Origin: Coralliovum pocilloporae
GTDB taxonomy: Bacteria > Pseudomonadota > Alphaproteobacteria > Rhizobiales > Cohaesibacteraceae
Length of the DNA: 64,000 nucleotides
NCBI RefSeq assembly: GCF_030845175.1
Contig: NZ_CP132542.1
Span: 2,081,501 to 2,145,500 of the forward strand
Direction of reading: 5' to 3'
Positions 7,666 to 28,646 of the stretch are shown here, one piece after another. The first letter of the stretch is position 1; the number at the start of each line of letters is the position of its first letter. Made by a program: the position numbers and the translations under genes. The notes below the pieces were generated by a model that saw only the letters and a program-made list of their open reading frames with translations, was not told the DNA's origin and ran no database searches.

Positions 7666-8073
7666 ATGATTGAAGGCCTCAGCCATATGACCTTTATTGT
7701 CAGCGATCTCGACCGCATGGAAGAGATTCTGACCCGGGTTCTGGGTGCCCGTAAGGTCTATGACAGTGGTGATGCGACCTTCTCCCTCTCAAAAGAGCGG
7801 TTCTTCGATGTGGCAGGTCTGTGGATTGCTACCATGGAAGGGGAACCACTTCCCTCACGAACCTATAATCATATCGCCTTCAAGATCAGCGATGATGCCT
7901 ATGATGACAGGCTGCAGGAGATAAAGGCCCTGGGGCTTGAGGTCAGGGAAGGGCGTTCCCGCGTGGATGGTGAAGGACGATCAATCTACTTCTATGACCA
8001 TGACAATCACATGTTTGAGCTGCATACGGGCACGCTGGATGAGCGGTTGAGACGATACGCAGAGGGTAATTAG
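7666..8073 (+). CDS. fosX: FosX-type fosfomycin hydrolase (VOC family)
   Basis: Small metal-dependent enzyme of the glyoxalase/VOC fold. FosX enzymes open the epoxide of fosfomycin with water. The 135-residue sequence closely matches the Listeria FosX pattern as I remember it: GLSHMTFIVSDL, SGDATFSLSKERFF, GLWIATMEGEPL, RTYNHIAFKISDD, GEGRSIYFYDHDNHMFELH and GTLDERLRRY. Metal ligands would be His7, His66 and Glu115 or a near neighbour. Its TAG stop (8071-8073) falls on the first bases of a palindromic element. Natural function could be another small epoxide; many environmental FosX proteins are weak resistance enzymes. Confidence 0.88.
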   Translation: MIEGLSHMTFIVSDLDRMEEILTRVLGARKVYDSGDATFSLSKERFFDVAGLWIATMEGEPLPSRTYNHIAFKISDDAYDDRLQEIKALGLEVREGRSRVDGEGRSIYFYDHDNHMFELHTGTLDERLRRYAEGN

Positions 8074-8232
8074 AGCCTATCCACTCTATGTTGGTTCACT
8101 TGACCAGCTTTCCTTGCCCGCTGAGCGGCGTTGAGCAGTCTTTATGATCAACCAGATCACCACAGACTGCTCGCCTTGTCAGCAAACAAGGAAAGCTGGT
8201 CAAGTGAACCAACATAGAGTGGATGTGCTCTA
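8071..8232. mobile_element. 162-bp palindromic MITE-like element
   Basis: Arms 8071-8116 and 8187-8232 are inverted copies matching at 44 of 46 positions. The central 70 nt continue the symmetry: GAGCAGTCT at 8132-8140 against AGACTGCTC at 8164-8172, and TGATC/GATCA in the loop. The ends read TAGAGC...GCTCTA, consistent with a TA target duplication flanking GAGC termini, as in IS630/Tc1-type MITEs. No coding capacity. It fills the whole gap between convergent fosX and the Crp/Fnr gene and would also fold into a bidirectional terminator. Confidence 0.7.
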
Positions 8233-14921: not shown

Positions 14922-14962
14922 TTGACTTTGGTCAAGGGTGAATCATCTGTGATCGCTAGGCT
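14922..14962 (+). promoter_or_regulatory. FNR/NNR class II promoter of norCB
   Basis: TTGACTTTGGTCAA (14922-14935) is a perfect dyad box; TAGGCT (14957-14962) follows after 21 nt as the -10. Predicted start near 14969, 29 nt before norC. Confidence 0.85.
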
Positions 14963-27359: not shown

Positions 27360-27401
27360 TTGACTTTGGTCAAAGGCGATTCCCGTGAAGCTGCCTAGGG
27401 T
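27360..27401 (+). promoter_or_regulatory. FNR/NNR class II promoter of norQDEF
   Basis: TTGACTTTGGTCAA (27360-27373), identical to the norC box, then 22 nt to TAGGGT (27396-27401). Same geometry and -10 as nosR. Predicted start near 27408, which leaves a leader of about 423 nt before norQ. Confidence 0.8.
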
Positions 27402-27665
27402 CAAGACTCATTGCTGACGCCCATTCTGTTCATCAGGGAAGTACAGAATGGTCGCAAACAAAAGCGCAGGACAGGTGGACCCTATTCAAGCTGTTGTTTG
27501 TGGTCAGGCTGGACTTCCCTGATGAACCCAAAGGGCGGGGTCATTTTACCGTCCGGCTTTGTTGGAGATCCTTGAAAACCGGAAGGTTTCCTGCGGACCT
27601 CCGCCGCGCCGGGCGAAAAAATGACTATCGCAGAATGGACGTCAGCAATGAGTTTTGACCCTAGG
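27394..27665. repeat. 35-bp inverted duplication with nested hairpins in the norQ leader
   Basis: Positions 27394-27428 are repeated in inverted form at 27631-27665 with 33 of 35 identical; the left arm includes the -10 element and predicted start. Inside, 27429-27442 is exactly inverted at 27513-27526, and CCATTCTGT/ACAGAATGG (27421-27429 / 27443-27451) make a local hairpin. This may be an insertion remnant or a structured RNA leader. Confidence 0.7.
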
Positions 27666-27830
27666 GTCCATACATACGGATTATTCCTGAGGGAATGGAC
27701 CGGAGGATCTGCCGCTTCATACACAGCCACACTGACGTAGTGATGCATTCCAGACCCTTGCAGACCTGCTCATATGCCGGGAGACACACCTCCCGACATA
27801 TGGGAAATGACAGCAAACGTGGAGACCATG

Positions 27831-28646
27831 ATGACCGGATCAGTTGCTCATCTTGATGGTGTGGAGAACACCGATCAGCCTTTCTATCAGCCGCAGTCGG
27901 ACGAGTGCTCCATTTTCGGGATGGCCTATGACCGGAAACTGCCGGTATTGCTCAAAGGCCCGACCGGGTGCGGCAAGACGCGCTTTGTCAGCCACATGGC
28001 TGCCAGGCTTGGGCTGCCGCTTTATACGGTTGCCTGTCATGATGACCTGTCCGCAGCCGATCTGACAGGCCGCTATCTTCTGAAAGGGGGCGAGACGGTC
28101 TGGTCTGACGGGCCGCTGACACAGGCTGTCCGCAATGGCGGCATCTGTTATCTGGATGAGGTGGTCGAAGCCCGTAAGGATGTGACAGTGGTTCTGCATC
28201 CTCTGACGGATGATCGCCGGGTTCTGCCGCTTGAACGCACGGGAGAAACGCTTGTTGCGCCAGACAATTTCATGCTGGTCGTCTCTTATAACCCGGGCTA
28301 CCAGAACATTCTCAAAACCCTCAAGCCCTCTACTCGCCAGCGGTTTGTGGCGCTGGATTTCGATTTCCCTGCCATGGAGCAGGAAGTGGCGATTGTCGCG
28401 CGCGAAAGCGGTCTTTCAGATGATCGGGTCAGGCCGCTGGTGCTGCTGGCCAGGAAATATCGTGAGCTGAAAGGGCAGGACCTGGAAGAGGGCGTCTCAA
28501 CCCGTCTGCTCGTCTATTGCGCCGGACTGATAGCGGACGGCATGTCCATGGACCGGGCAATTGATATTGCCATGATCGGACCGCTGACTGACGACGAGGA
28601 TACCAGGGCCGGTCTCAAGGACCTGGTCTCCGTCACTATCGGCTAA
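27831..28646 (+). CDS. norQ: NorQ/NirQ, MoxR-type AAA+ ATPase
   Basis: Cytosolic AAA+ chaperone that works with NorD to activate NorCB (insertion of the non-haem iron). About 271 residues. Walker A in LLKGPTGCGKTRFVSHMA and Walker B in GGICYLDEVVEA, with sensor VVSYNPGY. Start at 27831 because GGAG (27821-27824) gives a 6-nt spacer; ATG 27828 and an in-frame ATG at 27774 are alternatives. It opens norQDEF, separated from norCB by more than 10 kb. Confidence 0.93.
   Translation: MTGSVAHLDGVENTDQPFYQPQSDECSIFGMAYDRKLPVLLKGPTGCGKTRFVSHMAARLGLPLYTVACHDDLSAADLTGRYLLKGGETVWSDGPLTQAVRNGGICYLDEVVEARKDVTVVLHPLTDDRRVLPLERTGETLVAPDNFMLVVSYNPGYQNILKTLKPSTRQRFVALDFDFPAMEQEVAIVARESGLSDDRVRPLVLLARKYRELKGQDLEEGVSTRLLVYCAGLIADGMSMDRAIDIAMIGPLTDDEDTRAGLKDLVSVTIG

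Follow-up and report, generated by a model that had tools for sequence, protein, structure and literature searches.

Bacterial MITEs are for the most part regarded as deletion remnants that are short-lived and confined to a genus. The closest known kinds to the element described here, which we term the Y element, are IS5-related MITEs and the two-armed CIR repeats of ~110 bp. MITEPsy1 of Pseudomonas syringae is an IS5-related MITE of 100 bp with a reported 4-nt duplication (PMC3189936). The Y element resembles it in being non-autonomous, in its IS5-type terminal repeats, in its CTAG or YTAA targets, and in its dispersed copies, but it is 264 bp long, duplicates TA, and has a two-armed body that is conserved across genera. 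CIR elements of Caulobacter and Brucella, as outlined from Chen and Shapiro (2003) in a later paper (PMC2229807), are ~110 bp long with unpaired ends. As far as that outline goes, they share with the Y element an alphaproteobacterial intergenic location, two hairpin arms, and conservation between species, whereas the ~268-bp length of the Y element and the pairing of its ends in a long stem place it outside the CIR group. The Correia/NEMIS elements listed for Neisseria (PMC2229807) are likewise MITEs with TA ends, a highly paired transcript, and proposed effects on neighboring mRNAs; at 107 to 155 bp, they are set apart from the Y element by description rather than by sequence. The same kind of distinction applies to the ERIC/IRU repeats of enterobacteria, which are also dispersed palindromic intergenic repeats with TA ends found in several genera (PMC2229807) but are shorter and single-stemmed. 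We found no description of the Y element, its end sequences included, in open-access full text; subscription papers and ISfinder lay outside the scope of this search. No match above the gathering threshold was obtained from Rfam 15 for the window or for six member loci, and a weak hit to MIR5534, far below threshold, was discarded.

The window, 64,000 nucleotides of the Coralliovum pocilloporae genome, holds a large inverted repeat in front of norQ. An earlier note on this DNA had described a 35-bp inverted duplication with a nested repeat and a local hairpin, and all three are real. The arms at 27394-27428 and 27631-27665 (35 nt) are complementary at 33/35 positions (94%) across a spacer of 202 nt. 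Nested within lies a second inverted repeat of 48 nt at 79% (27418-27465 and 27490-27537), the arms of the local hairpin occupy 27411-27434 and 27438-27461, and a 14-nt direct repeat (86%) links 27394-27407 to 27660-27673. The folding energy of the whole stretch is -159.8 kcal/mol compared to -88.1 (standard deviation, 5.5) for shuffled sequences (z -13.2), and the opposite strand also folds (z -14.7 versus shuffles). Thus, the folding of the repeat upstream of norQ is far beyond chance.

Using the repeat stretch as the query, we searched the single 3.918-Mb contig of the genome and found ~20 full-length copies, 17 others at 90 to 95% identity and two at 76 to 78%. Further relatives include several at ~71% identity, which represent older subfamilies, and many partial copies. 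Alignment of the copies fixed the unit as TA-GGGTCAAGACTCATTG...CAATGAGTYTTGACCC-TA. At norQ this corresponds to TA, 264 bp, and TA, or 268 bp in total, with the ends GGGTCAAGACTCATT...AATGAGTTTTGACCC. TA flanks the element on both sides in 20/23 copies examined, and the target site reads Y-TA-R. The copies lie at sites unrelated to each other and in both orientations; inspection of reading frames placed nearly all of them between genes, and at six copies the stop codon of a neighboring frame falls on the element junction. The suggestion in the earlier note that the repeat is the trace of an insertion is therefore borne out by the genome search that it had proposed. The nested repeats, which resemble a local inverted duplication, would fit an insertion sequence that had decayed, or a scar left by rearrangement, at the norQ site alone. 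However, the exact boundaries recur in ~20 copies and related elements have equal length in many genera, which leaves this explanation with next to no probability.

The full-length element at norQ (27396-27663, plus strand, both TA included) aligned with the ~20 genomic copies and matched the covariance model described below with 291.7 bits. It is bounded by the duplicated target TA at 27396-27397 and 27662-27663. The outer stem pairs the terminal inverted repeats at 27394-27427 and 27632-27665 (both plus strand). Inside it stand two long imperfect hairpins on the plus strand, arm A (27428-27527), where nearly every pair shows compensatory changes across genera, and arm B (27535-27631), with the conserved apex CTTGAAAACC-NNN-AGGTTTCCTGCG. 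A junction linker between them (27524-27539, plus strand) carries a conserved CCC-NNN-GGG motif. Protein coding was ruled out, as no reading frame is conserved open among 33 members and stops occur in all frames. A GANTC site (GACTC), the CcrM methylation motif, lies at 27405 in the terminal repeat; the position varies and reads GACTC or GACCC in other genera.

Shorter elements of 53, 68, 77, 117, 122, and 129 bp are also present, their ends identical or similar to those of the full-length unit. The half at 27538-27663 (plus strand) occurs alone as derivatives of ~126 to 129 bp that begin at an internal pseudo-end, GGGTCATTTTACC; ~129-bp examples are at L022:655-783 and L021:641-769. These derivatives suggest that a transposase can use the arm junction as an end. 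An apparent 1.1-kb element at 1349953-1351041 was considered as an autonomous copy and rejected, since it is a host gene flanked by two separate short derivatives. Relative to their consensus, the copies carry 4 to 21 base differences, and for this reason the family may be inactive in this genome. Given its dispersal, its target duplication, its deletion derivatives, and ends that match IS5-family insertion sequences, we identify the Y element as a MITE. It is small and dispersed, has terminal inverted repeats and a target duplication, lacks a transposase gene, and shares its ends with an autonomous element, features by which bacterial MITEs are recognized.

That autonomous element is found in related genomes. 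The ends TAGGGTCAGGACYCATT are common to the MITE and to complete elements of 835 to 848 bp, which have two reading frames, with matches to DUF4096 and DDE_Tnp_1, and are of IS5 type. IS5-family elements with the same or nearly the same ends occur in several genomes (G033, G098, G261, and others), and in G033 a single mismatch in the first 20 bases separates the insertion sequence end from a Y-element end. A search of 297 genomes of the order for the ends TAGGGTCARRACYCATTGMT, allowing at most one mismatch, found them in 16 genomes, C. pocilloporae included. In C. pocilloporae itself, we found no transposase with matching ends and no DDE_3 match, the latter excluding an IS630 origin within this genome. 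Five IS5-like copies of ~860 bp are present (L053-L057, at 2176846, 402870, 1156812, 2788036, and 1220914); these DDE_Tnp_1 copies have the ends TAGGTTCAATCGACATTC, unlike those of the MITE, and were rejected as the partner. Also set aside were exact end matches in viral and GTDB contigs, which lacked a paired end and are attributed to chance, and a plasmid match to ISKpn12 that was weak and uninformative. With no such insertion sequence in the genome, we infer mobilization by an IS5-type enzyme, whose helper copy may have been lost or may have diverged here. The Y element would then be a non-autonomous 264-bp MITE moved in trans by an IS5-family transposase that duplicates TA. The match between insertion sequence and MITE lies in their ends; homologous interiors among elements with other ends argue against a recent origin by internal deletion.

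At norQ, the element appears to have inserted into the TA of the promoter -10. The FNR/NNR-type box TTGACTTTGGTCAA (27360-27373, plus strand) flanks the element and lies outside it, and the TA of the presumed -10 begins 36 nt from the start of the box. This TA is the left copy of the target duplication, so the presumed -10 TAGGGT (27396-27401, plus strand) would be recreated from the target TA and the GGGT of the element. The spacing is like that of the norC promoter, where the same box at 14922 is followed 35 nt on by TAGGCT. The norC (14922-14962) and norQ (27360-27401) promoters thus share the box and a CTAGG-type -10, a common insertion target. Because CTAG is a common target of the Y element, -10 regions would be natural landing sites. 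With TAGGGT recreated, the norQ promoter probably still works and transcription probably continues through the element. From a start near 27408, nearly the whole element would lie in the norQ leader, ~420 nt to an ATG at 27828 or 27831 (norQ, 27831-28646, plus strand) compared to ~155 nt before the insertion. This agrees with the leader of about 423 nt claimed earlier. The accompanying claim that the other NNR leaders span 16 to 86 nt was compared for norC only, where the leader of ~30 nt is in line with it. It had also been proposed that the repeat includes the -10 and the start of norQ; the -10 and the presumed transcription start do lie inside, while the start codon lies outside the repeat. 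An empty site in the nirE-norQ gap would read GAAGCTGCCTAGGGTCCATAC. The proposed comparison of this gap in close relatives met another gene order and hence yielded no empty site: in relatives of the same family (L153-L160), norQ directly follows norB in an operon that lacks the Y element. In the window, norQ stands apart from norC and divergent to nirE.

Could the leader instead be an RNA switch controlling NOR maturation, as had been suggested? Such a switch would fold in the leader and control norQ translation or transcription upon a signal. The element does sit between the promoter and norQ, and the predicted leader transcript is strongly structured (z -7.7). However, the Y element occupies ~20 unrelated sites, beside unrelated genes and in both orientations, and because of these other copies a NOR-specific switch is not supported. 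Neither a terminator-like site nor an Rfam match was found, the norB-norQ operon of relatives does without the element, and its non-standard pairs carry no RNA strand bias (see below). A riboswitch should be tied to a particular gene class and show an excess of G-U on one strand; we saw neither. We consider a NOR-specific switch highly improbable, and any effect of the element on norQ would be a by-product of the insertion. Outside the MITE, a strong hairpin, CATATGCCGGGAG-ACACAC-CTCCCGACATATG, lies at 27771-27802 just 5' of the norQ start codon and is a possible local control element.

Elements of similar length occur in other genomes of the order. Identity between their sequences is low, and almost all of them form an outer stem that bears two long arms. 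RNAalifold found two-sided change in 56/78 pairs. A covariance model built from 17 members matched in 78/397 genomes of the order (46/141 genera), almost always at full length, and in a further 17 genomes elsewhere in the class. Nearly all loci inspected at these two taxonomic levels begin with TAGG and end with CCTA, and named members reside on plasmids of Nitratireductor, Phyllobacterium, and Sphingopyxis alaskensis. Members have a mean identity of 56% and a length of ~268 bp, with compensatory change on both sides in 72/77 stem pairs. Among 38 aligned members, two-sided change was seen in 65/75 pairs, and 91.5% of cells were paired compared to 66.7% in shuffled and 34 to 48% in slid alignments; the structure beat all 500 shuffles and all slid controls. 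Since these 38 members were found and aligned with the covariance model, their alignment leans toward the model fold, a bias that is addressed by the slid controls and by the independent alignment described below. Internal loops also recur across members. The covarying arms named in the earlier note as support for its reading are thus present, as a property of a mobile element in many genera and not of a norQ leader. The Y-element family extends across the order, and conservation of the palindromic, Y-shaped body is at the DNA level.

Selection on an RNA made from one strand would tolerate G-U pairs and would not tolerate A-C. We therefore counted G-T and A-C cells in pairs that had been predicted without G-U. 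The counts were 20 versus 15 in 18 copies of the own genome, 50 versus 72 in 33 alphaproteobacterial members, and 27 versus 24 in 17 members from other parts of the phylum that had been aligned independently, with no significant difference in any set; this test is blind at fixed G-T pairs, such as the minus-strand wobble conserved at the apex of arm B. Because the two mismatches are about equally frequent, the constraint looks to act on the DNA or on both strands and not on one RNA. The motif at the apex of arm A is found again in arm B, on the opposite strand.

These counts weigh on a further explanation, that the element bears a regulatory or processed RNA: read-through RNA would be cut, for example by RNase III, the expression of neighbors would change, and the fold would be selected as RNA. 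The very stable fold on either strand is consistent with this, and Correia/NEMIS elements have been proposed to be cut likewise (PMC2229807). Because none of the three data sets shows a surplus of G-T over A-C and because the two arms bear similar apical motifs on opposite strands, we regard an RNA-selected fold as quite improbable. Strand-neutral covariation would also be expected if replication corrected one hairpin arm from the other, so that functionless complementarity built up by neutral change. Correction of this kind is unlikely in our judgment, though less so than an RNA-selected fold: conservation is as high at unpaired interior positions as at paired ones (0.67 versus 0.64), the length stays close to 268 bp in different classes, and the internal loops recur. 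We infer instead that some protein or process acts on the folded DNA, as a hairpin or cruciform. Taken together, it is very probable that the norQ leader contains a MITE, moved in trans by an IS5-family transposase into the norQ -10, which was kept, with any effect on norQ as a by-product and the body conserved at the DNA level.

Beyond the Alphaproteobacteria, the model matched elements of 261 to 272 bp across the phylum with quite different ends, e.g., TAGGGCCTGTTGACGTTT and TATACCCAAGTGACTTCAAG. Named relatives are on records of Pseudomonas aeruginosa, Azotobacter, Halomonas, Vibrio campbellii, and Photobacterium. The window itself holds a near-perfect palindrome of ~162 bp (8071-8232; GAGCCTATCCACTCTATGTTGGTTCACTTGACCAGC... 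and its reverse complement), not related to the Y element by sequence and possibly another MITE. Covariance model R1 gave this palindrome 78.6 bits, so the model score alone was rejected as proof of homology: the model can score any palindrome, and counts of low-scoring hits are untrustworthy without a sequence test. For this reason, homology was tested without structure, using a sequence profile of the alphaproteobacterial interior with the ends removed. In a database of 8 kb, the profile matched 13/14 distant elements in register within ~3 bases (E values of 1e-5 to 1e-2), and it matched none of 1,000 shuffled decoys and not the unrelated palindrome. When 17 distant relatives were aligned separately, two-sided change was found in 60/65 pairs. 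Given these two results, the body appears to be homologous between the elements of Alpha- and Gammaproteobacteria while the ends have been exchanged. In Candidatus Fukatsuia, a Vibrio-type end (TATACCCAAGTGAAATCAAGATGCAGGATT; L215:1501-1536) is adjacent to an IS630-family transposase; the partner of this end was looked for there and not found, and an IS630 partner for Vibrio-type ends is at most hinted at.

We tentatively propose, as a possibility somewhat short of an even chance, one ancient superfamily of ~268-bp Y-shaped DNA elements in at least the Alpha- and Gammaproteobacteria, in which the folded body is the conserved, functional part and the terminal repeats have been exchanged, so that one body is carried by different transposases. 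If this is true, the transposase or a widespread host factor would bind or cut the body in its hairpin or cruciform DNA form. The Y element keeps its length and two-armed fold across classes despite sequence turnover, with almost every pair compensated, and the question of what recognizes folded DNA in a MITE becomes testable. Annotators gain a model for an element that Rfam misses, as well as a caution against reading leaders such as that of norQ as gene-specific RNA switches.
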